From Salipaludibacillus daqingensis (GTDB taxonomy: Bacteria > Bacillota > Bacilli > Bacillales > Salisediminibacteriaceae): 38,913 nt of DNA. The notes under the pieces were generated by a model. That model was not told the origin of the DNA and ran no database searches. It was given only the letters and a program-made list of their open reading frames with translations. Numbering within the stretch: position 1 is the first letter of the stretch; the number at the start of each line of letters is the position of its first letter. Shown here piece after piece: positions 8,283 through 20,171 of this stretch. The stretch covers positions 1-38,913 of the forward strand of contig NZ_JARZHF010000016.1 of assembly GCF_029891575.1 (NCBI RefSeq). The letters run 5' to 3'. Both the position numbers and the translations under genes were made by a program.

Positions 8283-8309
8283 CAAAAAGCGGACTACAAA
8301 AGTAGTCCG
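8283..8309 (-). terminator. Terminator of the ccm operon
   Basis: An 8-bp perfect stem CGGACTAC / GTAGTCCG with a TTTT loop, followed by CTTTTTG on the minus strand. It begins about 15 bp after the ccmG stop codon and closes the twelve-gene cytochrome c maturation operon before tadA. Confidence 0.9.
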
Positions 8310-8323
8310 TTCGTTTACCTTCT

Positions 8324-8842
8324 TTATTGTTTCATCAAGTCACTTACTTTCTTTGCCATGACATCTCTCGTTACAGATCCAACGATATGATCAACGACAA
8401 TCCCGTTTTCATCGATAATAACGGTTTCTGGTTGACCAATAATACCATAGCGCTGCGAGACGTGAAGGTCAAAATCAAACACATAAGTTTTATCAGTAAA
8501 GCCTGTTTTTTCGATGAATCGCTCTACAGCTCGTTTGGATTCTGATTTAACGATCGTAAATACTTGAACATCCCCGTCATATTCTTCCGTAAATTGCATC
8601 ATTTCTGGTGCTTGTGCTTCACAAGGTTTACACCACGTTGAGAAGAAATTTAATACGACTGGTTTTCCTTCGAAGTCCGATAGCTGATATATTTCTCCCG
8701 ATTGATCTTCAAGTTGGAAATCATATGAGGGATCACCTATGCCAACTGTATCTCCTTGGACTCGCAGACCAAGGACAAACGTAATTAATATTCCTATCAC
8801 AAACACCCCTGTAAACCCTTGGATCCATTTTGTCTTATTCAT
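8324..8842 (-). CDS. ccmG: CcmG/ResA-type thiol-disulfide oxidoreductase
   Basis: A 172-aa membrane-anchored thioredoxin-fold protein with one N-terminal transmembrane helix (residues about 8-25). The active site WCKPCEA is near residues 71-77, and the family cis-proline region is GQPETVIID. CcmG (ResA in System II) reduces the CxxCH cysteines of apocytochrome c on the outer face of the membrane so that heme can attach. CcmG and ResA cannot be separated by sequence alone; the position as last gene of a ccm operon favours CcmG. The ATG follows GGGGGGAGG. No CcdA/DsbD electron donor is encoded nearby, so its reductant must come from elsewhere. Confidence 0.88.
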   Translation of the reverse strand: MNKTKWIQGFTGVFVIGILITFVLGLRVQGDTVGIGDPSYDFQLEDQSGEIYQLSDFEGKPVVLNFFSTWCKPCEAQAPEMMQFTEEYDGDVQVFTIVKSESKRAVERFIEKTGFTDKTYVFDFDLHVSQRYGIIGQPETVIIDENGIVVDHIVGSVTRDVMAKKVSDLMKQ

Positions 8843-8873
8843 AGAACCTCCCCCCTCTCTCGGATCACCGGGC

Positions 8874-9002
8874 TTAGTCTTCTTTCATTTCGCGAATAAA
8901 CTGCAATTCCTTCATCGCATCATTTTGTCTTTTTCCAATCGCCCACACATACCCCGCAATCAACAACCAAATAATAGAATAAGCTGCAAATAAATACGTC
9001 AT
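8874..9002 (-). CDS. ccmD: CcmD-like small membrane protein
   Basis: A 42-aa ORF with the CcmD layout: MTYLFAAYSIIWLLIAGYVW, one transmembrane helix at residues about 4-22, then a basic segment (GKRQ) and a charged helical tail. CcmD joins CcmABC and helps release heme-loaded CcmE. A very strong AAGGAGG lies 10 nt upstream. It follows ccmC by 15 bp and precedes ccmG, the standard place. The family is weakly conserved, so the call rests on topology plus position. It was too short for a usual ORF cutoff. Confidence 0.85.
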   Translation of the reverse strand: MTYLFAAYSIIWLLIAGYVWAIGKRQNDAMKELQFIREMKED

Positions 9003-9017
9003 AACGTTCTCTCCTCC

Positions 9018-9749
9018 TTAGGAAATCATTTTCTCTTGTTCTTTTGCCTTCATCTTCTTCACGTGTAATTTAAGTTTTTCTACGTATAACCCTTTTTGTA
9101 AAAGGATGAAATAAATAAGCATAAGTGTAAAAACGGAAAATATGAGTGTAAACAGCATGCTAGGTTCTAAACCGCCGCCTGCACTTTCTCCTTCAGACAT
9201 AACAACAGGGTGTAAATTAGACTCCCACCAGCGAATCGACATATAAACGATCGGTACATTCGCAAAACCAATGATTCCAAAAACAGCAGCTAATCTAGCC
9301 CGTTTCTGCCATTCCATGTCTAAATTTCGAATCATAATATAAGCTATATACATGAATAGCAAAATCAACGTCGTCGTTAACCTTGGCTCCCATGTCCACC
9401 AAGTATTCCAAGCGGACCTGGCCCAAATAGGTCCTGTTGTTAAAACAATCGCCGTAAAAATGACACCTATCTCACCACTGACTCCAGCAATTAAGTCATA
9501 AGCCCGTTTTTTTGTAAATAAATAAAGCAAGCTAAAGACAAAAACGATAAAAAAGGCAAAAAATGCGTTCCATGCCGAAGCGACATGAAAGTAAAAGATT
9601 TTTTGAACTGGTCCCATCATTCTTTCGACAGGCGTCCATATAAATACGAGATACATTGCTACTAGCGTCATTGGAACAGCGATTGCCAGCAATACTTTAT
9701 GAAGTTTCGTTGGGACCATTCCTGTAAGTTCATCACGATCATTTGTCAT
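9018..9749 (-). CDS. ccmC: Heme exporter/handling protein CcmC
   Basis: A 243-aa integral membrane protein with six predicted helices. It carries the tryptophan-rich heme-handling motif WNTWWTWEPRLT at 114-125 (usual form WGTWWVWDARLT, so G and D are changed to N and E). Two flanking histidines are present, H55 in YFHVASAW and one in SNLHPVVM. CcmC presents heme to CcmE at the outer membrane face. The C-terminal extension is lysine-rich. The gene is separated from ccmB by 3 bp, and the ccmA-B-C-D order is canonical. Confidence 0.95.
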   Translation of the reverse strand: MTNDRDELTGMVPTKLHKVLLAIAVPMTLVAMYLVFIWTPVERMMGPVQKIFYFHVASAWNAFFAFFIVFVFSLLYLFTKKRAYDLIAGVSGEIGVIFTAIVLTTGPIWARSAWNTWWTWEPRLTTTLILLFMYIAYIMIRNLDMEWQKRARLAAVFGIIGFANVPIVYMSIRWWESNLHPVVMSEGESAGGGLEPSMLFTLIFSVFTLMLIYFILLQKGLYVEKLKLHVKKMKAKEQEKMIS

Positions 9750-9752
9750 CTC

Positions 9753-10442
9753 TTACACCTCCAGCACATGTTCAAATAATAAAAATCCTACAACAAAGAA
9801 AATCACATCATACGCAGCCATTAACTGCATCCAACTTAAGGCCGCAGATACCCCTTCTTGATCGACTAACACAATTCTTGTCGCCTGCACGGCCGCAATG
9901 ACAATAGGTGTCACGAGCGGAAAAAGTAAAATCGGTAAGAGCATTTCGCTGCTTTTGGAATGTGTTGCCAATGCAGCTAGTAGCGTCCCCACAGCGATAA
10001 AACCAAATGTTCCTAAAAAGACAATCATCACAAAATAAATAAGACCAACACCTGTAATGACATGAAAGTCAAATAATAAAAACAAAAGTGGTACGGAGAT
10101 TAGTTGAACGAGTAGGACAAACACCAAGTTAGCCATACACTTACCTAAATAAATAGCTGAAGGATCCACAGGTGCAACCATCAATCCATGTAAATGATCG
10201 TTCTGTTTCTCTTGCATAAACGATCGATTCAAACCAAGAATCCCTGAAAAGATCGTAATCACCCAAATCATGCCTGGAACGAGTGCAGAAACAGCCTGGT
10301 TGGACGGATCAAATGCAAAGCTAAACGTGACAATCACTAACCCAGAAAATATAAGCATCGTTGTAATCGTTTGTTTCGTTTTCCATTCCGCATAAAGGTC
10401 TTTCCAAGCGATTGCCATCGCCGGAGCAAATAGGTGCTTCAT
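9753..10442 (-). CDS. ccmB: Cytochrome c maturation ABC transporter permease CcmB
   Basis: A 229-aa membrane protein with about six helices. The family signature is seen in an early FMQEKQNDHLHGLMVAPVD, which resembles the E-x-x-x-x-G-L...S/P cytoplasmic loop of CcmB. CcmAB uses ATP to drive release of heme-bound CcmE from CcmC. I place the start at ATG 10442 (MKHLFAPAMA), which overlaps the ccmA stop as ATGA. The longer in-frame reading into ccmA, from 10481, is not family-like. Overlap implies translational coupling. Confidence 0.93.
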   Translation of the reverse strand: MKHLFAPAMAIAWKDLYAEWKTKQTITTMLIFSGLVIVTFSFAFDPSNQAVSALVPGMIWVITIFSGILGLNRSFMQEKQNDHLHGLMVAPVDPSAIYLGKCMANLVFVLLVQLISVPLLFLLFDFHVITGVGLIYFVMIVFLGTFGFIAVGTLLAALATHSKSSEMLLPILLFPLVTPIVIAAVQATRIVLVDQEGVSAALSWMQLMAAYDVIFFVVGFLLFEHVLEV

Positions 10443-11140
10443 GATGACAACGCCTCCCCATCGTACAACGAATGAATCCAACTAACTGGTCGCCCCTGGA
10501 TCCATTCATCTTCGGCAATTCTTCCTTTTCTTAGAATAACCGCTCGATCACAGATCGTACTTATTTGTGGGAAGTCATGGGTTACCATAATAATTGTCAC
10601 ACCTTCTGCCTTTAAATCGAGCAGTAGTCGGTTAAATAATGAAACAGCTTGCTGATCCAATCCAGTATGAGGTTCATCTAATAACAACACGTTAGGTTCA
10701 TGAAGGATCGCTCTCGCAATAGCAAGTCTCTGAATCATTCCTCTTGAAAAGGAACGGATAGGCTCATGTTTGAAAAACGACAAACCAACGTCATCAATTA
10801 ATTTATGAATACGTTCATCTGGTGACTTAAGTTGATATAGTTTTGCAAAAAAATGAAGGTTTTCAACAGGAGAAAAAGCCTCATAGAGAAAGCTTTGATG
10901 CCCTAAGTAGCCCATCCTCTGTTGCTTGGAATAATCATCTTTTTTTCGTGGCACACCGTCTAGTAACACGTCACCACTAGACTGTTTTAGAAGGCCGGCA
11001 ACGATTTTCAACCATGTACTTTTCCCTGCACCATTTGTTCCTAATATGGCCACAGACTCTCCTTGATTAATGCGAAGATTTACCCCGCGAAGGATCATTT
11101 TTTCTCCTATCGTTTTTGTAATTCCTATTGTTTCAATCAT
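10439..11140 (-). CDS. ccmA: Cytochrome c maturation ABC transporter ATPase CcmA
   Basis: A 233-aa ABC ATPase. Walker A GTNGAGKST is at residues 34-42. The signature is degenerate, FSRGMIQR in place of LSGGQ, a feature often seen in CcmA. Walker B is VLLLDEP, the D-loop GLD, and the switch histidine is in MVTHDF. It pairs with CcmB. GGGGGATCAAG precedes the ATG, and the stop overlaps the ccmB start by 4 nt. On its own it could be another ABC ATPase, but the neighbours settle it. Confidence 0.93.
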   Translation of the reverse strand: MIETIGITKTIGEKMILRGVNLRINQGESVAILGTNGAGKSTWLKIVAGLLKQSSGDVLLDGVPRKKDDYSKQQRMGYLGHQSFLYEAFSPVENLHFFAKLYQLKSPDERIHKLIDDVGLSFFKHEPIRSFSRGMIQRLAIARAILHEPNVLLLDEPHTGLDQQAVSLFNRLLLDLKAEGVTIIMVTHDFPQISTICDRAVILRKGRIAEDEWIQGRPVSWIHSLYDGEALSS

Positions 11141-11200
11141 CTTGATCCCCCGCTTTCGATATGACCAAATGTTTAATGAACGTATTTCTTATTTTTAAAC

Positions 11201-11596
11201 TTAGGTCAAAAACTCATTTAATTGCTTTTTTACTTTATGCAAATACGCTTTATAAGCTTCTGTTTTCTGCTGATAATCCATTTCGCTCAGCTCGCCTCTG
11301 TCATAAGCTTCCTCAAGTTCTAGTAGTTTCTTCAGAGTAATGTTTTTCTTTGACATTAAATCTTGGAACGTTTTTTCCTCCTCGGTTGACGTCCACTGCG
11401 ATTCCTTGTCTGCATGCTTTCGTTTCACATGGATAAAATAACTGACACCAAAGATAATAATGATTGCTAGCAAAGCTGTCACCAAGTGGGGTTCAAACCT
11501 TGTTAAAGGAGAGCTATACCACATGTTCATATGACCTTGCGGATGGAGGGATGGGGTGTAACTTGAAACACCTGCCACAATGAACCAATCAAACAT
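11201..11596 (-). CDS. Unknown membrane protein of the ccm operon (131 aa)
   Basis: Not a named family to me. It has a short N-terminal segment with histidines (H18, H22), a transmembrane helix at about 40-57, then a cytoplasmic basic/helical region. The tail carries LLELEEAYDRGELSEMDYQQ (residues about 91-110), a helix-turn-helix hairpin of the kind found in CcmI and SHOCT-type tails. The same pattern recurs in the CcmI-like protein just upstream and in the operon's first protein. The ATG lies 3 nt after the previous stop codon, with GGGGGAG as ribosome site inside the ccmI-like gene, so translation is coupled. A role in apocytochrome or CcmF/H assembly is inference. Confidence 0.75.
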   Translation of the reverse strand: MFDWFIVAGVSSYTPSLHPQGHMNMWYSSPLTRFEPHLVTALLAIIIIFGVSYFIHVKRKHADKESQWTSTEEEKTFQDLMSKKNITLKKLLELEEAYDRGELSEMDYQQKTEAYKAYLHKVKKQLNEFLT

Positions 11597-11599
11597 TGT

Positions 11600-11992
11600 T
11601 TACTCCCCCTTTCGCAGCTTCCTCATTTCAGCTAATTCTTTGTCAATTTCATCTTCAATCGACGAATCTCTCCTATCATCGTCATTTTCTCGTTCGTCTG
11701 TTTTGCTTTCAGTTTCAGAAGAATAAGCATCCTCTTTTAATTTTTTCGCGGCAATCCGCTCGTATTGGTTTTTCAATGATTGATAATCTTTCTCTGGTAA
11801 CTTGCCCATGTTATATTCCATTTCAAGCTCATTAATCGTTGCATATGCTTGCTCAAGCGTCAGATCGTCCAAATCGTCTTTTAGCTCATCGGTTCGCCAT
11901 TGTTGTTTCTTACCAGAAAGAAACGGCTGAATAACAAGGTAGAGACATAGACCGACAATCAGTGTGCTTACGATATATCCCACTGTTATCAC
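11600..11992 (-). CDS. CcmI-like protein (short form)
   Basis: A 130-aa protein with an N-terminal transmembrane helix (about 4-22, VSTLIVGLCLYLVIQPFL). The CcmI-type hairpin INELEMEYNMGKLPEKDYQS lies at about 53-72. The tail is highly charged (Glu/Asp/Arg/Lys). In proteobacterial System I, CcmI uses this membrane segment and hairpin to join CcmFH and a TPR domain to hold apocytochrome c. Here the TPR part is absent, so this is a CcmI1-like stub. The start is GTG. It lies 64 bp after the second ccmH-like gene. Confidence 0.72.
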   Translation of the reverse strand: MITVGYIVSTLIVGLCLYLVIQPFLSGKKQQWRTDELKDDLDDLTLEQAYATINELEMEYNMGKLPEKDYQSLKNQYERIAAKKLKEDAYSSETESKTDERENDDDRRDSSIEDEIDKELAEMRKLRKGE

Positions 11993-12056
11993 ACCCTACT
12001 TAGAAAACTTCGCTCTCACCATAAGAATAAGGTAAAAGTCTTTGACATGCTTTTTA

Positions 12057-12557
12057 CTAAAAATGCTTTCTTTTTTCTTCTTCAATAATTGCTCGAATCA
12101 CTTCATCTTCCGGATCATCCTGTGACTCTTCAGTCCTAGCATTTGTTCCGTTTTCCTCTTTTGTTCCTTCATCGATTACGTGTCGTTTCACTCTCATGAA
12201 AAATACAGTAGAACCAACACCTAAAACGAGGAAAGGAATCGTCCAGGCAAAGATACTAAATCCAGTTGTTTTTGGTGCCCGAAGACCTTGTTCACCATAC
12301 ATCGCTTCATATTCCGCCAAGACCTCTTCATCGGTGTATCCTTCATTTAACATTTCAGCAATTTCCTCATAGTAGCGATTTTTCGTAGAACAAGTAGCTA
12401 ACTCATGTTCGCTATGCCCTTCCATTGATAACTTACTGGCGATTTCTTTTACTTCTGACGAGTTCGTATCATGCATTTCTTCCCCATGAAAAGTTGGCAT
12501 AACAAGGAACATCAAGGCAAAAAGAACAGGCAACATTTTCAGCTTTTTCACCATCAT
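12057..12557 (-). CDS. CcmH-like protein lacking the redox cysteine pair
   Basis: A 166-aa protein in tandem with, and clearly similar to, the upstream ccmH. It has an exported N-terminal helical domain, then DEEVLAEYEAMYGEQGL, GFSIFAWTIPF leading into a transmembrane helix, and a C-terminal EEEKRKHF that matches EERKKHF in its neighbour. The cysteine cluster of CcmH is missing: only one cysteine, C56, remains, aligning with the last cysteine of the neighbour. It therefore cannot act as a CxxC thiol reductant and is probably a structural partner. The start is set at ATG 12557 after AAGGTG; a GTG at 12563 is an alternative. It follows the first copy by 9 bp. Confidence 0.85.
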   Translation of the reverse strand: MMVKKLKMLPVLFALMFLVMPTFHGEEMHDTNSSEVKEIASKLSMEGHSEHELATCSTKNRYYEEIAEMLNEGYTDEEVLAEYEAMYGEQGLRAPKTTGFSIFAWTIPFLVLGVGSTVFFMRVKRHVIDEGTKEENGTNARTEESQDDPEDEVIRAIIEEEKRKHF

Positions 12558-12566
12558 TATCACACC

Positions 12567-13064
12567 TTAAAAATGCTTTTTTCGTTCTTCATCAATGAGG
12601 GAATGTAGAATATCACTTTCTGTCTCATCCTCTAGTCCGTTGGGTAGTTCCGGTTTCATTAATTGTTTCGACTTTCGAACCCATTTGCGAATCAAATAAA
12701 TGATTCCACCGCCCGCACCTCCTAATAAAATAAACGGTGTCACCCATGCCGTTAAACTAAAACCGCTTTTTTCCGGTGCCGTCAATATAACTTCTCCATA
12801 CATTGCGACGTAATGCTCTTTAATTTCACTTTTGTCGTAGCCATCATCATTCATCATTTCAAGTATTTCTGTCTTGAACTGCTCGTTTAAGCCACAACCT
12901 TCCATGTTGCATTCAAAATGATCTTGTCCGCAGCCGCACAAACACATAAACTGGGACGTATTTTCTCGAAATTCTGGTGAATTTCGGTCGTAATCTCCTT
13001 GTGCCATAGTAGGAACAGCGACGATAAACATGAGGGCCACAATCATAAGCATTCGACCAATCAT
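12567..13064 (-). CDS. ccmH: Cytochrome c maturation protein CcmH
   Basis: A 165-aa protein with a signal peptide or anchor (residues 1-21) and a cysteine-rich redox segment: C41-x-C43-x-C45, then C52 and C57. A CcmH helical fold follows (SEIKEHYVAMYGEVILTAPE). A C-terminal transmembrane helix lies near 105-127, then a charged tail ending EERKKHF. CcmH handles apocytochrome cysteine thiols and forms the heme lyase with CcmF. The cysteine spacing differs from the LRCxxC of proteobacterial CcmH. It follows ccmF by 2 bp and precedes a paralogous, cysteine-poor copy. Confidence 0.9.
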   Translation of the reverse strand: MIGRMLMIVALMFIVAVPTMAQGDYDRNSPEFRENTSQFMCLCGCGQDHFECNMEGCGLNEQFKTEILEMMNDDGYDKSEIKEHYVAMYGEVILTAPEKSGFSLTAWVTPFILLGGAGGGIIYLIRKWVRKSKQLMKPELPNGLEDETESDILHSLIDEERKKHF

Positions 13065-13066
13065 TG

Positions 13067-15055
13067 CTAATGCACCTTCCTTTCAGGTCCTGCATATCTA
13101 GGTGATACTTGACCGTACCGCCCTCCCCATATAGCGAATATCGCTCCAATAATGAGAACATAGCTACCTACCCAAATCCACTTGACCAACGGGTTAATTT
13201 TCACTTGAAAGGTTGCTCGTTGATCTTCTTCCCAAGCACTTAACACAACGTATAAATCTTCTCGAAGGGTGCTTCGAACAGCAACTTCTGTTGATGGTTC
13301 TTCCCAGTTCAAGTAAAACATTCGCTCTGGTTGAATATATCCTAAGTTTTTACCGTCTTTTTCTACTAGTATGTTTGCATAAACAACATCATTTACGCCA
13401 TCGCTTCGTTGATCTAGCGCTTCATACGTTAATGTATAGCGATCAATATCCATCGACTCTCCGATGCGGAGTGTTTCCATCCGTTCAATATCAAAGTTAG
13501 ATCCAACAATCCCAAAAGCAATCAGTGCAATACCTAAGTGAACAATGTAACCACCGTATCTTCTGCGGCTTCGAATCATTAGTCTGACGAGAGCTACGGG
13601 ATAAGCTTCTTTCGTTACTTTTCTTCTCGCTTTCGTCCCACGAATAAATTCGACGAGGTGAGTTAATACCATAAACGATATGATCGAAAACGATATGACT
13701 GGATAAGCATCTCTTATACCCATAGCAACAACGATACCTGCAATCACCAAACTGATAATGGCTGGTATGAGAAAGTTGTCACGGATATTTTTCAAACTGG
13801 ACCGTTGCCACGCAATAAGCGGGCAAATCGCCATGATGAATAATAGTGCTAATAAAATCGGTGACATGACCGTGTTAAAAAATGGCACACCTACGGTAAC
13901 TTTGTTTCCGGTAACGGCTTCGCTCACTAGCGGAAACACCGTTCCCCAAAACACAGCAAAAGTTGCTCCTAATATAATCAAATTATTAACTAGAAATGAA
14001 CTTTCTTTTGAGACAAACGATTCAAATTGTCCCGTATCTTGTTTAATTAAATGATAACGACTCATCAACACATACATGGATAAAAGCACCATGAACGCCA
14101 TAAATACAAGGAAATATGCCCCTAAATTCGTTTCGCCAAAGGCATGTACCGAGGTAAGTACACCACTACGGACAAGAAATGTTCCAAACAGGGTTAAAGA
14201 GTAAGAAAGGATGATCAAACTCAAGTTCCATATTTTCAACATGTTTTTCCGTTCCTGAATCATTACCGAGTGAAGATAAGCTGTGACAGTGAGCCAAGGC
14301 ATAAATGAGGCATTTTCCACCGGATCCCATGCCCAGTAACCTCCCCACCCCAGTTCCATGTAAGCCCAATATCCACCAATCACATTTCCAAGTGTTAGAA
14401 ATGCCCAAGCAATAATTGTCCATCTTCGCGTCATTTGAATCCAAAACGCGTCCATGTTTTTCACAATCAAAGATGCGATAGCAAAGGCAAAAGGCACTGC
14501 TAGACCGACATAACCTAAATAAAGCGTCACTGGATGGAAGATCATCCCCGGATCTTGTAACATCGGATTTAATCCTCTTCCTTCTGGAGGAACACCGTCC
14601 ATTAACGTAAATGGTTGGGTGACAAAACTTAAAATAAGATAAAAGAAAATCACATTTAACATAAGAATGCTAACAATGTATGGTGTCATTGGGTTCCGTT
14701 TCATTTTTTTAGAAAAGGCAACCATTGCGCTATACATGGCGAGGAAAAAGGTCCATAACAAGAGCGAACCTGCGTTTCCTGCCCAAAGTGCAGCCAATTT
14801 ATAGATAATTGGTAAATCTGTACTACTGTATTGATAAACGTACTGGAACTGAAGCTGACTTGTTCCTAGCAAATAGAACATGAGTGTCATAGAAATACTC
14901 GCTAAGATAAAAATCCCCATCGTTGCTCCTTTACCGCTGTCGATCAATCGCTGATCCTGTTTTTTGATACCAAGAACAAACGCAACGAACGCATAAATAG
15001 ATAGAAAGAATGCCAAATAAATGGAGACGTTTCCGATAATGTGCATAGTACTCAC
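13067..15055 (-). CDS. ccmF: Heme lyase subunit CcmF
   Basis: A 662-aa polytopic membrane protein, the size of CcmF. The WWD heme-binding motif GWGGYWAWDPVENASFMPWL is at 236-255. The conserved GLNPMLQDPGMIFHPVTLYL is at 161-180 (H174), and H262 follows the WWD segment. A large extracytoplasmic domain precedes the last helix (about 500-640). CcmF with CcmH attaches heme to CxxCH motifs of apocytochromes. It is the only CcmF/NrfE-type lyase in the window, so it is also the candidate for the CxxCK site of NrfA. ATG 15055 follows a GTAGGTGAGTACT region. It lies 35 bp after ccmE. Confidence 0.97.
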   Translation of the reverse strand: MSTMHIIGNVSIYLAFFLSIYAFVAFVLGIKKQDQRLIDSGKGATMGIFILASISMTLMFYLLGTSQLQFQYVYQYSSTDLPIIYKLAALWAGNAGSLLLWTFFLAMYSAMVAFSKKMKRNPMTPYIVSILMLNVIFFYLILSFVTQPFTLMDGVPPEGRGLNPMLQDPGMIFHPVTLYLGYVGLAVPFAFAIASLIVKNMDAFWIQMTRRWTIIAWAFLTLGNVIGGYWAYMELGWGGYWAWDPVENASFMPWLTVTAYLHSVMIQERKNMLKIWNLSLIILSYSLTLFGTFLVRSGVLTSVHAFGETNLGAYFLVFMAFMVLLSMYVLMSRYHLIKQDTGQFESFVSKESSFLVNNLIILGATFAVFWGTVFPLVSEAVTGNKVTVGVPFFNTVMSPILLALLFIMAICPLIAWQRSSLKNIRDNFLIPAIISLVIAGIVVAMGIRDAYPVISFSIISFMVLTHLVEFIRGTKARRKVTKEAYPVALVRLMIRSRRRYGGYIVHLGIALIAFGIVGSNFDIERMETLRIGESMDIDRYTLTYEALDQRSDGVNDVVYANILVEKDGKNLGYIQPERMFYLNWEEPSTEVAVRSTLREDLYVVLSAWEEDQRATFQVKINPLVKWIWVGSYVLIIGAIFAIWGGRYGQVSPRYAGPERKVH

Positions 15056-15090
15056 CTACTTTGCTGAATGATTAATATTGATTGATGAAT

Positions 15091-15546
15091 TTAATCGTCT
15101 TCTGGGTTTAACTCGCGATCCATTTCCCGGTGAATTTCAGGATCATAACTATCTGGATCTTCCCCTTCATAAACGGATGGACAGCGCGTCTGCACTTTAT
15201 CCGCTTCAAACACTCCGTCATCACCAAGGTATCCATGAACGATCACAATCACATCATCAGAAAAGTTATCAGGTCTCACTCCTTGGTAAAAAATAGGAAG
15301 GATGTTTCCTTGTTCATCTTTCAGATCAAAATTTAGTTTTATTTCATCGGCATTCCAATCGACAGATCCTTCAACGAGAAATCCTTCTGTTGTAATATAA
15401 CGTTCCATATATTCTTGTGAATTCTGATTGATTTGCTCGATCGATATTTCTGATCCACTTGAAGCAGGCGTCGCTGTAATAAGTAATACGATAATACTGA
15501 GAAAAATCATCGCTCCACCGAAAAGTACTTTCGTGTTTTTGTTCAT
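15091..15546 (-). CDS. ccmE: Heme chaperone CcmE, CxxxY type
   Basis: A 151-aa protein with an N-terminal anchor (residues about 7-24) and an OB-fold beta-barrel. The barrel has the family features EGFLVEGSV and FYQGVRPDNF. CcmE carries heme covalently from CcmC to CcmF. In the classic protein the heme ligand is a histidine in HDENY. Here the position reads C122-PSV-Y126, the CxxxY variant known from some archaea and sulfate reducers. The C-terminus is short and acidic. It is the second gene of the operon, 14 bp after the unknown exported protein. Confidence 0.92.
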   Translation of the reverse strand: MNKNTKVLFGGAMIFLSIIVLLITATPASSGSEISIEQINQNSQEYMERYITTEGFLVEGSVDWNADEIKLNFDLKDEQGNILPIFYQGVRPDNFSDDVIVIVHGYLGDDGVFEADKVQTRCPSVYEGEDPDSYDPEIHREMDRELNPEDD

Positions 15547-15560
15547 TTTTTTCCCTCCAA

Positions 15561-16574
15561 TTATGAAGAACGTTTCGATCGTTCTTTTTTATAAGTCTCT
15601 TCATCAATCTCGCCACGGATTAACTTTTGCCGTAATTCTTTCGTATCAACTGCTGGGTCGACATGAACAGCTTTCGATCGGCTTTTCTCTTTTACATTTA
15701 CTTGAGATCCTCGACTCTTGAGCCCGAAGAAAACAAACATTCCTGCAATGATAATCGACAAGCTAATCATTAGAGCACTTTCTGTATCAATTATTGGTGT
15801 ACCGCCATTTCCTCCTGCTGCAGCTTCAGGTGCCGAATCATCACGGAATTGCGCGTGAATATCATCATCTGGTGGCGTTTGTGTCTCCATTGCTTCAAGT
15901 GTCGTTACGCTGTCTTCTTTTTCATAAGAAATGTCTAGATCAAACGTTGTCCCAACTTCTGCGTCATCTCTGTCATACGCATGAGCTGGAACACCAAACA
16001 TTTCTGTTTCACGATCCGCTTCTTCACTCATTGAGAAATATTCAGCCCCGAACGGTTCAAATATTAATAAACTCATCGTTTCTGCAGGCAACTCTAATTC
16101 GTAATGATAAATAAATTGGTGAATGTCGGCCTCTTCATATGGATCGTAATAATACTCAATAACAAATCGATACTCATCACCTTGTTCAAGTTCCTCTTCA
16201 GGTTCCCATATGAGATGACCAGTTTCTTCATCTAATTCCGCATCTACTTCATGAACAATACCTTCTTCATCAAAGTTTCCAACTAATGATAATGTAAAGG
16301 CGGGTTCCTGATGCGGTACAGAAACACGAAACTCTCCTTCGAATTTTGCTTCACCGTTATACGTTAAAATTCCATGCTGTCCTACTAATACTGCTGGTTT
16401 GCCGTCTTCCCATCCATCAGGTTCTACATATTGAGGCATCACCTGTACAACTAATTCTTTGTAAGTTAGCTCTGAATCTTCTAGTTGTTCAGCTAAATAG
16501 CCTTGCGGATAAATAAATAAGCTAGAAATTATTATTATTACTAAAAATCGTTTAAGTGAGTTTTTACATTTCAT
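15561..16574 (-). CDS. Unknown exported, membrane-anchored first protein of the ccm operon
   Basis: A 337-aa protein of no family I recognise. It has a basic N-terminus and hydrophobic signal (about residues 7-28), a very acidic extracytoplasmic region rich in beta-prone segments (about 30-260), a C-terminal transmembrane helix (about 268-288), then a basic cytoplasmic tail. The tail ends KELRQKLIRGEIDEETYKKE, a SHOCT/CcmI-like hairpin. I use ATG 16574 because it is preceded by AGGAAGGAAGG. The in-frame extension to 16739 runs through the promoter and is rejected. As leader gene of the ccm operon it may dock apocytochrome or heme, but that is inference. No cysteine pair or heme motif is present. 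Confidence 0.8.
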   Translation of the reverse strand: MKCKNSLKRFLVIIIISSLFIYPQGYLAEQLEDSELTYKELVVQVMPQYVEPDGWEDGKPAVLVGQHGILTYNGEAKFEGEFRVSVPHQEPAFTLSLVGNFDEEGIVHEVDAELDEETGHLIWEPEEELEQGDEYRFVIEYYYDPYEEADIHQFIYHYELELPAETMSLLIFEPFGAEYFSMSEEADRETEMFGVPAHAYDRDDAEVGTTFDLDISYEKEDSVTTLEAMETQTPPDDDIHAQFRDDSAPEAAAGGNGGTPIIDTESALMISLSIIIAGMFVFFGLKSRGSQVNVKEKSRSKAVHVDPAVDTKELRQKLIRGEIDEETYKKERSKRSS

Positions 16575-16614: not shown

Positions 16615-16655
16615 TTTATACTGGTTCTCTTTTCTACACTGTGATGCAGATCACA
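16615..16655 (-). promoter_or_regulatory. FNR/CRP-type site and promoter of the ccm operon
   Basis: TGTGATGCAGATCACA at 16640-16655 is a perfect TGTGA-N6-TCACA dyad, the consensus of Gram-positive Fnr and of CRP-family factors. On the minus strand a TATAAA -10 lies at 16615-16620. The dyad is thus centred about 40 bp before the predicted start (near 16608), the class II activator position. There is no good -35 hexamer, as expected for an activator-dependent promoter. The leader to the first gene is about 34 nt. Confidence 0.8.
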
Positions 16656-16716: not shown

Positions 16717-16790
16717 TGAGAGGGTAGTTTTTCTAGCAAGAAGGGAATAGCTAACAGTCATTAAAAGTTTGAAACCAAAGGAGTGTTTTC

Positions 16791-18023
16791 ATGAAAACAC
16801 CGGATCAATCTCAACAGTCGTCATATAAAACTCCGATTTATAAAAACCCACAAAATGTCTTAACGTTAATAGGCGTAATACTAGCGCTACTTATTGGCTT
16901 CCTATCCTACCAATATTCAGGAATGCAATTCGTTGTATTATTTATTACTGGTATATTAATTGGTTTTACGTTATTTCATGCTAGATTTGGATTTTCTTCT
17001 GTCTACCGGCAAATCGTTGAAGATGGAAATACAGAAATGCTTCGGGGCCATATGCTCATGCTTGGAGCAGCAGCAACATTATTTGCACCAATTTTTTTCT
17101 TTGAGCTAGGGTTTTTTGGATCTTTTCCTACACCGGCCATGTCGCCGATTACTATTGGACTTATTGTTGGATCGTTTCTTTTTGGATTTGGTATGGAATT
17201 AGGTAGTGGCCTAGCTCCAGCATCTTTATATAAAGCCGAAGGTGGAAGGACAGCAATGATCTTTACGCTGTTAGGATTTACTGGAGGTGCTACATTAGGA
17301 GCAGCACACTTTGGATTTTGGAATGAAACCCTTCCTTCAGCTTCGCCTTTCTCTCTAGCTACCGGTACTCCTTTTGGTTACCCTGGAGCTTGGGTGATGC
17401 AAATCTCTGTCTTTGCTTTAATCGCTATTGGCAGCTATTTGTACAAAAAAAAGAAAAGACCACCTGCACTACCATCTACGCCTTTAGGTACAAATTGGAA
17501 GCAAATCCTTTTTGGTTTCTGGCCTCTATGGGTAGGTGCCTTAACCCTTGCAGCTTTAAATGCCCTCACACTCCTTATTCGTGGAGAACCATGGGTGCTC
17601 ACCGCCGCATTTAGTCTATGGGGCTCAAAAATCGCCATGTTCTTGGGCCTTGATGTTAGTACGTGGGGGTACTTTGGAGCACAAGAAGACCTTCAGTCGC
17701 TTCACTCATCGGTATTTGAGAGTTCTACTAGCGTTCTAAACTTAGGAGTCATCATCGGTACATTTATTACCCTTACTCTAGGTGGTTTGATCCGCTTTGC
17801 TAAAATTTCTTTTCGCATCGGTTTGATTGCACTTATAGGTGGCACATTGATGGGTTACGGGGCTACGCTTTCATTTGGTGCAAACGTTGGTGCTTATTTT
17901 AGTGGCATTGCTTCATTCAGTCTTCACGCATGGATATGGGCAATCTTTGCCATTACTGGTGTTTATGTTGCTTATTACCTCGAGAAAAGATTTGATTTTA
18001 GACGTGTTCAATCAAAAAATTAA
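16791..18023 (+). CDS. YeeE/YedE family membrane transporter without cysteines
   Basis: A 410-aa polytopic membrane protein with about nine to ten helices. The two family repeats are recognisable: GFGMELGSGLAPASLYKAEG (132-151) and GYGATLSFGANVGAYFSG (355-372). In thiosulfate importers of this family (TsuA type) each repeat has a conserved cysteine (GGC / RGC) that hands the substrate across the membrane. Here those positions are L141 and A364, and the whole protein contains no cysteine. Thiosulfate relay is therefore unlikely and the substrate is open. It is the only long plus-strand gene in the island, divergent from ccm and convergent with nrfA. AAAGGAG precedes the ATG at good spacing. 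Confidence 0.8.
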   Translation: MKTPDQSQQSSYKTPIYKNPQNVLTLIGVILALLIGFLSYQYSGMQFVVLFITGILIGFTLFHARFGFSSVYRQIVEDGNTEMLRGHMLMLGAAATLFAPIFFFELGFFGSFPTPAMSPITIGLIVGSFLFGFGMELGSGLAPASLYKAEGGRTAMIFTLLGFTGGATLGAAHFGFWNETLPSASPFSLATGTPFGYPGAWVMQISVFALIAIGSYLYKKKKRPPALPSTPLGTNWKQILFGFWPLWVGALTLAALNALTLLIRGEPWVLTAAFSLWGSKIAMFLGLDVSTWGYFGAQEDLQSLHSSVFESSTSVLNLGVIIGTFITLTLGGLIRFAKISFRIGLIALIGGTLMGYGATLSFGANVGAYFSGIASFSLHAWIWAIFAITGVYVAYYLEKRFDFRRVQSKN

Positions 18024-18099: not shown

Positions 18100-19551
18100 C
18101 TACTCTTCCAATTCTAGTACGTTAGGAAAATAATCATTCGTTGCATGTGTATGTTTCAAATAAGGGTCCTCTTCTTTATAAACGGTTTCAATGATATTTT
18201 CCATTTCTTCTTCCAACTCGTCAAAGTCGATTTCCAATTTTGTTAACTCTTCAATAGCAATTCGAATAGCTTGATTGGAAGCATCTGAAGATGTACGCAT
18301 CGAATCCATCCCCCCTTGTGGGTTATGGAAACCATCGGAGTTTTCAGCAGCAATAATATCCCAGAACCATTGTCCTTTTCGGATATACCACTGTGCTTCT
18401 TCAATTCGGTCTTCAGGTGCGCCCGCAGTAATCATCCGGTTCACATAATAGTGCGCACGGACAGAATGTTCTTGTGTTTCGTGCATCGCATCCAGGTGGC
18501 TTTCTTGAATGTTTTCTACTCGGTCAACTAACTCTGATTCTGATTTATCCGAGTGACACGTGCGGCACGTTTGCTCCACGTTGTCCATCGGTGATCCCCA
18601 GTGGTGAGAAGTAATTTTTTTCGCTCCATCCACTCTTTCGTAAGGCATATGACAATCGGAACAAGATACGCCCGCTTCCCCGTGTGGGCCATAGCTCCAT
18701 TGTTCAAACTCAGGATGTTGAGCTTTCAGCATAGGTGCCCCTGAAATGCTGTGAATCCAGTCATAATCAAATCCTTGCTCTATTGCTTGGTTTTCTTTGT
18801 ACTCAAACATATCTTCTGGTTTTAAGCCATTATCCCATGGGAAAGTAACCTTTTTATTTTCTGGTTCGAAGTAATATTCTACGTGACACTGTGCACATAC
18901 GTAAGAACGCATATCATTTTTACTAGCTTCTGTCACATCAATTCCTCGACGCTCCATTGCATTCGTAAACGATGGTCGAGTAATCCGCAATTCCATCGTC
19001 ACAGGATCATGACAATCGGAACAACCAATAGCCAAATGGCCGCTTGCACCTAACTCATCTACTTCATGCCCTTCGCCGTAAGCCATCGTCCTTGGAACAA
19101 TCTCATCTTCAAAACTAGCACCCCAATAATCATCGCCCATTTCATCGATTAACGCAGGTACAGCAGTACTTTTACAAGTCATACAAGAACCGATGGAATC
19201 TTCATTCGTTCGAACGATATTAATCACATCTTCAATCGCATACGTGTGTCCTCGTGTTAAATTGTATTCCAAACTAAAACCATAATTAAGAAATAATATT
19301 GGCAAATTTGGCTCAATTTCCTCCACAAACTTCGACGTGTTTTCGTCTTCCGGACTCATGTTTTTCAAGTAACTTTCGTACTGCAAAGGAAACTCTTCTT
19401 TAAAAGCAGTGTTTAATATTTCATCCGGAGACAAGCCTGTTGTTTTATCTTCTTCTTCCGATGCATCTGAGCTAGCACAAGCTGAGATAATTGCCAGACT
19501 CAATAACATAGAAATAAATACTCCGAACTTTTTCTTTCTTGAAAAGCCCAT
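18100..19551 (-). CDS. nrfA: Cytochrome c nitrite reductase NrfA (ammonia-forming)
   Basis: A pentaheme enzyme that reduces nitrite to ammonium with six electrons outside the membrane. Counting from the GTG at 19560, the active-site heme motif CMTCK is at 126-130. Four CxxCH motifs follow at 180-184 (CSDCH), 222-226 (CAQCH), 300-304 (CSDCH) and 332-336 (CRTCH). The catalytic histidine is in KAQHPEFE. A lipobox LAIISAC with Cys28 makes it a lipoprotein, as expected where there is no periplasm. ATG 19551 after GAGGGTG is preferred; GTG 19560 is possible. It follows nrfH by about 24 bp. The CxxCK site needs a suitable heme lyase, and CcmF in this island is the obvious candidate. Confidence 0.97.
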   Translation of the reverse strand: MGFSRKKKFGVFISMLLSLAIISACASSDASEEEDKTTGLSPDEILNTAFKEEFPLQYESYLKNMSPEDENTSKFVEEIEPNLPILFLNYGFSLEYNLTRGHTYAIEDVINIVRTNEDSIGSCMTCKSTAVPALIDEMGDDYWGASFEDEIVPRTMAYGEGHEVDELGASGHLAIGCSDCHDPVTMELRITRPSFTNAMERRGIDVTEASKNDMRSYVCAQCHVEYYFEPENKKVTFPWDNGLKPEDMFEYKENQAIEQGFDYDWIHSISGAPMLKAQHPEFEQWSYGPHGEAGVSCSDCHMPYERVDGAKKITSHHWGSPMDNVEQTCRTCHSDKSESELVDRVENIQESHLDAMHETQEHSVRAHYYVNRMITAGAPEDRIEEAQWYIRKGQWFWDIIAAENSDGFHNPQGGMDSMRTSSDASNQAIRIAIEELTKLEIDFDELEEEMENIIETVYKEEDPYLKHTHATNDYFPNVLELEE

Positions 19552-19575
19552 CTTCTTCACCCTCTCTTCCCCCCA

Positions 19576-20085
19576 TTAACTTTTTGCATCATATTCTCCG
19601 GGTTCGAACCATTCCGCTGGTTTATAACCAGCACTTCCATGAGGAACTTGTCTGTGACAATCGATACAACCACCGTCTTTGATATCATGATAGTCAACAT
19701 TTGTCATACTCGTCTCGTGACAACTAATACAATTTGCTTCGATGACTTCTTGAGAAGCTTCTGTCGCGTGAATCACATCAGGTACATTTTTCGAACCTAA
19801 TGTATTCATATAAATGTCATGACTACCAGCTTTTGCTTTAAAAATAATTTTTGATGTCAAGCTATCTTGTGGCGCATGACAATCGTTACAGGCCAATGTT
19901 GCATGACTGGATTCTGTATACGATTGATAGACGTCATCCATGATATGACATGTAGAACAAAACTCGGCTGAATCTGTTGCCTTCATTGCCCCTGAACTTC
20001 CTGCAAGCAGGGCAATGCCTATAAAGACTCCTGTTAATACAAACAATAACGCTCGTTTATCAAGTTTCTCTCTCAGCTTTGCCAA
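19576..20085 (-). CDS. nrfH: Tetraheme quinol dehydrogenase NrfH
   Basis: A 169-aa NapC/NirT-family protein with one N-terminal membrane anchor (about 12-32). It has four heme motifs: CSTCH 43-47, CNDCH 66-70, CISCH 119-123 and CIDCH 140-144. M49 directly after the first motif matches the unusual CxxCHxM heme 1 ligand of NrfH. It takes electrons from menaquinol and passes them to NrfA. The start codon is TTG at 20085, supported by AAGGGGTGAGGGGG just upstream and by the family N-terminus. It is the first gene of the nrfHA operon, under an FNR-type promoter. Confidence 0.95.
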   Translation of the reverse strand: MAKLREKLDKRALLFVLTGVFIGIALLAGSSGAMKATDSAEFCSTCHIMDDVYQSYTESSHATLACNDCHAPQDSLTSKIIFKAKAGSHDIYMNTLGSKNVPDVIHATEASQEVIEANCISCHETSMTNVDYHDIKDGGCIDCHRQVPHGSAGYKPAEWFEPGEYDAKS

Positions 20086-20128: not shown

Positions 20129-20171
20129 ATTGTATGGAAGCCGTTTGCCTACCAACGTGATGTGTATCACA
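20129..20171 (-). promoter_or_regulatory. FNR/CRP-type site and promoter of nrfHA
   Basis: CGTGATGTGTATCACA at 20156-20171 matches TGTGA-N6-TCACA with one mismatch. On the minus strand TACAAT (20129-20134) fits a -10. With a start near 20122 the dyad is centred at -41.5, the exact class II activator position. The leader before the TTG start of nrfH is about 37 nt. Together with the ccm site this indicates shared anaerobic control. Confidence 0.75.

Follow-up and report, generated by a model that had tools for sequence, protein, structure and literature searches.

The closest described counterpart of the locus reported here is found in Bacillus azotoformans, where ccmEFHABC, System I genes for cytochrome c maturation, are linked to nrfAH (Heylen and Keltjens 2012; PMC3475470). 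A CcmE of the cysteine (Cys) type has been reported in Firmicutes (PMC3601427). A 2025 review assigns NrfHA to System II and states that, beyond NrfI of Wolinella, the agent of heme attachment at CXXCK in the System II class is unknown (PMC12285233). In Shewanella, NrfA reportedly cannot do without CcmI, which has been proposed to work there with CcmF (PMC6976685). The present analysis concerns a 38,913-nucleotide stretch of the Salipaludibacillus daqingensis genome (contig NZ_JARZHF010000016.1; "the window" denotes this whole stretch) that carries a ccm operon beside nrfHA, the genes of a nine-heme enzyme reducing nitrite to ammonia. With a probability of roughly 0.7, this operon encodes a machine for cytochrome c maturation of the System I* kind—the variant known from Desulfovibrio and archaea—which is old in this order and has the neighboring NrfHA as its main client. 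The ccm–nrf linkage in B. azotoformans and the Cys-type CcmE of Firmicutes are already published; an order-wide CcmF–NrfA rule, shared control boxes, short lyase sets, and a conserved leader protein appear to be new as far as literature searches show. The rule was not found stated in the titles or abstract openings of the literature searched, and the accessible account of B. azotoformans, which deals with a single strain and notes six of its eight proteins, gives no cross-genome rule, box, or leader protein.

Gene content and class of the operon

The operon comprises 12 minus-strand genes running from 16574 to 8324 with intergenic gaps of −4 to 64 bases (open-reading-frame reading), the tight run that a preliminary description of this DNA had already recognized. 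That description had omitted X337, the first gene of the operon (15561–16574), from its named parts and had listed a single ccmI-like gene where there are two, neither with a tetratricopeptide repeat (TPR) match. The features of the locus are the following:

20156–20171, no strand assigned: one-mismatch Fnr/CRP-type box upstream of nrfH (motif scan)
19576–20085, minus strand: nrfH, four CXXCH (open reading frame; named by likeness, without family-library search)
18100–19560, minus strand: nrfA, one CMTCK and four CXXCH (open reading frame, profile, motif reading)
16640–16655, no strand assigned: exact Fnr/CRP-type box TGTGA-N6-TCACA upstream of X337 (motif scan)
15561–16574, minus strand: X337, leader gene (open reading frame, 337 amino acids; alternative open TTG start at 16739)
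15091–15546, minus strand: ccmE, Cys type with CPSVY (Pfam PF03100, 74.2 bits; motif)
13067–15055, minus strand: ccmF (PF16327, 210 bits; PF01578, 132.5 bits; 6zmq, 349 bits)
12567–13064, minus strand: ccmH form 1, five Cys, CLCGCGQDHFECNMEGC (PF03918, 65.5 bits)
12057–12563, minus strand: ccmH form 2, one Cys, LATCSTK (PF03918, 44.4 bits)
11600–11992, minus strand: ccmI-like 1 (TIGR03142, 17.9 bits, cut-off of 29.3 not reached)
11201–11596, minus strand: ccmI-like 2 (no CcmI family match in Pfam or NCBIfam)
10439–11140, minus strand: ccmA (TIGR01189, 144.2 bits, above the cut-off of 131.6)
9753–10442, minus strand: ccmB (PF03379, 106.3 bits; ATG at 10442, TTG at 10481 likewise open)
9018–9749, minus strand: ccmC (PF01578, Cytochrom_C_asm, 92.7 bits)
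8874–9002, minus strand: ccmD (TIGR04391, 52.4 bits, above the cut-off of 24)
8324–8842, minus strand: ccmG, ResA/DsbE-like thioredoxin with WCKPC (best match NF002854, 100.8 bits, below the cut-off of 170)
8290–8309, minus strand: terminator-like hairpin after ccmG (hairpin scan)

Pfam cut-offs were passed for CcmE, for CcmF_C plus Cytochrom_C_asm, for CcmH twice, for CcmB, and for Cytochrom_C_asm in CcmC. The names recR, dnaX, tadA, serS, pdxST, dacA, guaB, opp, efp, spoIIIAA, ResA, ResDE, NrfH, and YeeE were given by protein reading rather than family search. The closing terminator proposed earlier is seen as a terminator-like hairpin (8309–8290) immediately 3′ of the ccmG stop codon; its position carries the argument, because terminator-like sites in the scan (11 observed, 8.6 expected) are near chance.

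The motif of CcmE is CPSVY, of the Cys rather than the His type, which therefore assigns the operon—by gene content likewise a predicted System I* machine—to the Cys variant and not to E. coli-type System I. In the window together with the Bacillota loci sampled, 56 CcmE frames score above 90 bits, and all of them are of the Cys type. CcmF aligns over nearly its full length with 6zmq, the solved structure of Thermus CcmF, and keeps the stretch WGGYWAWD, which we take to be the WWD heme-handling stretch. Together with CcmA, CcmB, CcmC, and CcmD, these are features of System I*, whereas those of the E. coli type are missing: CcmE is not of the His type, and neither of the two CcmI-like proteins of the operon, the only ones examined in this respect, has a TPR family match in Pfam or NCBIfam. 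The first of these proteins consists of a hydrophobic helix and a short helical part; the second matches only the final part of a 331-amino-acid protein occupying the same slot in Neobacillus-type operons (e.g., L010, 12878–13873). The earlier label of a complete System I holds for CcmABCDEFG and CcmH; it fails for a TPR-type CcmI and for the variant, which is the Cys one. The operon shares the Cys-type CcmE and the CcmABCDEF set with System I* of Desulfovibrio and archaea, but adds CcmH (often in two forms), CcmG, and the leader X337. CcmH alone is no distinction, since about one third of bacteria with a Cys-type CcmE, Firmicutes among them, have CcmH (PMC3601427). The one-Cys CcmH was also considered as a marker of NrfA and rejected as a strict one, several nrf-linked loci holding the five-Cys form alone (profile).

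CcmF is present as a single copy, and the same genome carries components of System II. ResB (C1:259305–260684; profile search of the genome) lies on a contig other than the operon's, near a ResC-like frame (C1:258056–258991), in a run that also holds, by reading, a ResA-like gene and a two-component pair. The genome thus resembles Bacillus subtilis with its ResABC/CcdA System II in possessing ResB and ResC; the ccm operon lies on another contig, and ResB occurs in 35/35 genomes of the family, with or without NrfA. Because both genes are found elsewhere in the genome (C1:258056–260684), as the preliminary description had anticipated, the operon is not simply its only system. The premise of that description, that Gram-positive bacteria typically use System II, was too strong, Cys-type CcmE being in print for Firmicutes (PMC3601427).

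Pairing of CcmF with NrfA and putative shared control boxes

Three samples were surveyed, comprising 35 genomes of the family, 397 of the order, and 398 of the phylum. Within the family, CcmF was called in 14 genomes, NrfA in 15, and ResB in 35, the CcmF and NrfA calls agreeing in 34/35. NrfA was found in 30/397 genomes of the order sample and CcmF above the cut-off in 33/397, with G192 having a CcmF below it; all 30 NrfA genomes possess CcmF, as opposed to 3/367 others (Fisher p 5e-42 per genome), and when counted per genus CcmF occurs in 11/11 genera with NrfA versus 3/124 others (Fisher 8e-14), p-values that serve only to rank the effect because the sampled genomes are kin and the counts overstate independent events. 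ResB is present in 29/30 of the NrfA genomes (5/5 plus 24/25; the exception, G213, is 90% complete) and in 3/3 genomes with CcmF and no NrfA. It is therefore CcmF that tracks NrfA, ResB being there regardless. NrfA and CcmF lie at most 10 kb apart on one contig in 28/30 of these genomes. The exceptions are the fragmented G028 and G198; in the latter, X337 stays beside nrfHA while the full operon is on another contig (L220, L221). The tie of ccm to NrfHA suggested earlier from one neighborhood is thereby borne out by co-occurrence, linkage, and control boxes far beyond it.

The gene order varies: ccm precedes nrfHA in 12 loci and follows it in 24, the latter being the order of the window. In three loci (L020, L026, L027), nrfHA is preceded by a short set, X337-ccmF-ccmH-ccmI, and the 20-kb stretch has no ccmABCDEG; a full ccm operon, L014, lies on the same contig as L027. 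These short sets resemble NrfEFG of E. coli. The window, in contrast, has one full Ccm set with no added lyase and no TPR-bearing NrfG, and the NrfE and NrfF models score below their cut-offs on its proteins. The combination of a general CcmF with a paralogue next to nrfA, as in the NrfEFG arrangement, is absent from this genome and present in the relative with L014 and L027.

An exact TGTGA-N6-TCACA box precedes X337, and a box with one mismatch precedes nrfH. We take this sequence to be of the Fnr/CRP kind, like the Fnr box of Bacillus; a literature search turned up no paper on that box. Boxes with at most one mismatch were found in 31/36 nrf-linked ccm leaders versus 3/23 unlinked ones (59 leaders in all) and in 50/2950 shuffled leaders; the locus sets used for the box, the CcmE/CcmH type, and X337 were not thinned, and at least two of them, L017 and L215, seem to come from one genome. 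Of the three boxed unlinked leaders, two belong to genomes with NrfA on another contig (G022, G028) and the third is L014. Across the whole window, boxes with up to two mismatches are at chance level (25 versus 22.4 expected), so the case for the boxes rests on position and conservation. An Fnr-type protein may be the regulator acting at them.

Order-wide pairing, linkage, boxes, and short sets together support dedication of the operon to NrfHA. In the mechanism proposed here, CcmABCD would load heme onto the cysteine of CcmE, which would pass it to CcmF; CcmF and one form of CcmH would then attach heme at the nine NrfH/NrfA sites, the CXXCK site included, with CcmG and CcmH holding Cys pairs reduced. 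X337 and the CcmI-like stubs might replace the TPR part of CcmI in holding the unfolded cytochrome. An Fnr-type regulator would turn on both operons without oxygen, and ResBC would serve the remaining cytochromes c. Since the order pairs a CXXCK-bearing NrfHA with System I* in 30/30 genomes despite ResB in 29, the question of heme attachment at CXXCK becomes testable by single deletions in a tractable strain, for which nature provides a minimal system in the short lyase sets.

Descent of the block and alternative readings

In a 102-row CcmF tree, 50/52 rows counted as Bacillales form one clade (Shimodaira–Hasegawa-like approximate likelihood ratio test 100) inside a Bacillota group, G152 and G299 being placed elsewhere within that group; long branches in the tree are flagged. 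The window's order was equated with Bacillales from the named rows, which are nested among the coded ones. Unrooted trees of CcmF, NrfA, and ResB for 28 genomes (29 taken; G238 left out for a cut NrfA) have in common a split of families f1 and f28 from the rest at 98–100% bootstrap, and distance rank correlations are 0.61 for CcmF–ResB, 0.49 for CcmF–NrfA, and 0.63 for NrfA–ResB. However, a single clade of the nrf-then-ccm families, recovered in the CcmF tree, is rejected by that of ResB (approximately unbiased (AU) test, p 0.0145), which leaves some exchange or noise in the gene trees to be accounted for, and older exchange within the order may have occurred. That independent transfer is proved by the trees was rejected, as agreement among the unrooted trees outweighs their differences. 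In two families the block has tadA and opp genes as its neighbors, namely in the genus of the window, in genus g5, and in six f28 genomes; against an undisturbed history weighs its position away from tadA in 5/14 CcmF genomes of the family (G026, G013, G031, G033, G034). Six relatives lack the block at this site: oppC adjoins tadA in G003 and G016, serS adjoins tadA in G027, and the oppC end lies 0.3–0.8 kb from the tadA place in G010, G012, and G013. This distribution fits either an old presence followed by repeated losses or a spread from neighbor to neighbor.

Movement of an old ccm block between families of the order, with renewed fixation beside nrfHA, is possible if somewhat unlikely; it concerns history only and is compatible with a System I* machine serving NrfHA. 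The variable gene order, the blocks at other places, and the AU result are in keeping with it, as are CcmF distances between f1/f28 and f17/f25 that are short relative to those of NrfA and ResB, the CcmF of G180 being long. Gene-specific rates could, however, account for these distances, and the CcmF and NrfA trees agree on deep groups.

A less favored alternative, in our judgment distinctly unlikely, regards the operon as a general anaerobic cytochrome c system whose capacity is raised by Fnr for all clients, nrfHA being merely the commonest of them. It draws on stand-alone operons: all 13 full operons that belong to Neobacillus or related Bacillus sp. (L002–L014), like L221, have a diheme (2xCXXCH) cytochrome c frame upstream of ccm (7545–8228 in L010), and the 13 have no nrfHA in the stretch. 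Other clients of System I* therefore probably exist. It also draws on the three order genomes with CcmF and no NrfA (G050, G152, G299), the operon of G050 adjoining a protein with five CXXCH. Yet the box is missing from 12/13 of the stand-alone operons, the short lyase sets adjoin nrfHA, and a general system sits poorly with CcmF in 30/30 NrfA genomes versus 3/367 others.

Apart from these possible clients and the kinship of the genomes, several further observations weigh against a dedicated NrfHA machine, most of them from outside the order. The single family mismatch, G018 (76% complete), has NrfA without CcmF. Against shared control stand a further one-mismatch box match inside nrfA (18750–18765) and the chance-level total for the window. 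In the phylum sample, NrfA matched at 250 bits or more in 71 genomes, of which 31 have CcmF above the cut-off and 40 lack it, while CcmF occurs in 43 of the other 327; ResB is present in 36/40 of the NrfA genomes without CcmF. Around NrfA in 69 phylum genomes, CcmF was near in 7, a ResB-, CcsA-, or CcmC-type protein in 21, and none of these in 41, a count in which some stretches are short contigs and the CcmC type is pooled with the ResB and CcsA types (in G444 the protein is a CcmC and no other). A phylum-wide CcmF–NrfA rule was accordingly rejected, as was the choice of CXXCK over CXXCH as the reason for CcmF: every full-length NrfA examined carries CXXCK, and relatives of System II can therefore serve a CXXCK-bearing NrfA. 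NrfI of Wolinella, of the CcsBA type, is a private lyase beside nrfHA, but belongs to System II where the window's operon is System I*. Elsewhere in the phylum, six loci of family f79 (L294–L299) hold a divergent CcmF of 697–723 amino acids, with CcmE and CcmC, 0.5–5.6 kb from nrfA.

Horizontal acquisition by the host, as first inferred, is not borne out as a recent event: despite patchy presence (33/397) and relatives whose sites lack the block, a recent gain of operon and nrfHA from a distant phylum is unsupported and very improbable, being already disfavored by the position of the order's CcmF as one clade inside a Bacillota group, by the main split that the CcmF, NrfA, and ResB trees have in common, and by the same opp–tadA slot in two families. 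Vertical descent of CcmF, named in the preliminary description as the outcome that would speak against such a gain, is largely what the CcmF tree displays, the displaced blocks and the AU result being the part that departs from it.

The leader protein X337 and neighboring genes

X337 has no Pfam or NCBIfam family match at E 0.1, and a profile search found no solved structure related to it by sequence (best E 0.064). It was matched in 22/22 named Bacillota loci and at 100 bits or more in 34/37 CcmF loci from order-sample genomes; the X337 and CcmI-like profiles were built iteratively, and weak matches may therefore be drift. Confinement of X337 to Bacillota was rejected as a strict rule, since 58 loci of other phyla gave one match of 172.6 bits and five of 21–28 bits. 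The strong match lies on a contig (L038, 5447–6297) of a Poribacteria metagenome-assembled genome and reflects either transfer or contamination. An AlphaFold2 model from a 35-row alignment (mean predicted local distance difference test score 81.9) predicts an N-terminal, signal-like helix, a beta-rich domain, one hydrophobic helix, and a short helical tail. The top Foldseek match of the model is ribophorin I (8b6l_O; E 5.5e-9, query template modeling (TM) score 0.42, root mean square deviation (rmsd) 15.5 over the whole length), and M1 aminopeptidases come next with their N-domains (query TM about 0.37, rmsd about 5.6), so that the predicted likeness to either is modest. From this fold, the operon position, and the missing TPR part, it may be guessed that X337 holds unfolded cytochrome c. 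A further-reaching proposal, which we consider rather unlikely, would make X337 an unrecognized heme-lyase subunit of Gram-positive System I*, with an extracytoplasmic beta domain remotely similar to those of ribophorin I and the M1 aminopeptidase N-domains. It would take over from the CcmI TPR in presenting unfolded cytochrome to CcmF and, with the one-Cys CcmH, would aid acceptance of the NrfA CXXCK site.

The possible second System I* client at L010, the diheme cytochrome region, is flanked by efp-like and spoIIIAA-like genes. In G050, which has CcmF without an NrfA match, the protein with five CXXCH comprises 484 amino acids and is encoded just before ccmE (L228, 5818–7272); a profile search found no ccmB and no adjacent ccmA in this operon. 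Five loci of family f28 (L226, L227, L246, L247, L248) carry an additional nrfHA pair, placed in tandem on the upstream side and with CMSCK as its first site, and G033 has a second nrfA (L224). Between nrfA and X337, the window encodes a divergent membrane protein (16791–18023, plus strand), presumably YeeE/YedE-like; a 90% identical protein stands beside ccm at a different chromosomal place in G026 (L240). In four genomes of the window's genus (L225, L241, L244, L245), the gap between nrfA and X337 instead holds a protein of 358–367 amino acids that has two CXXCH and begins like a lipoprotein.

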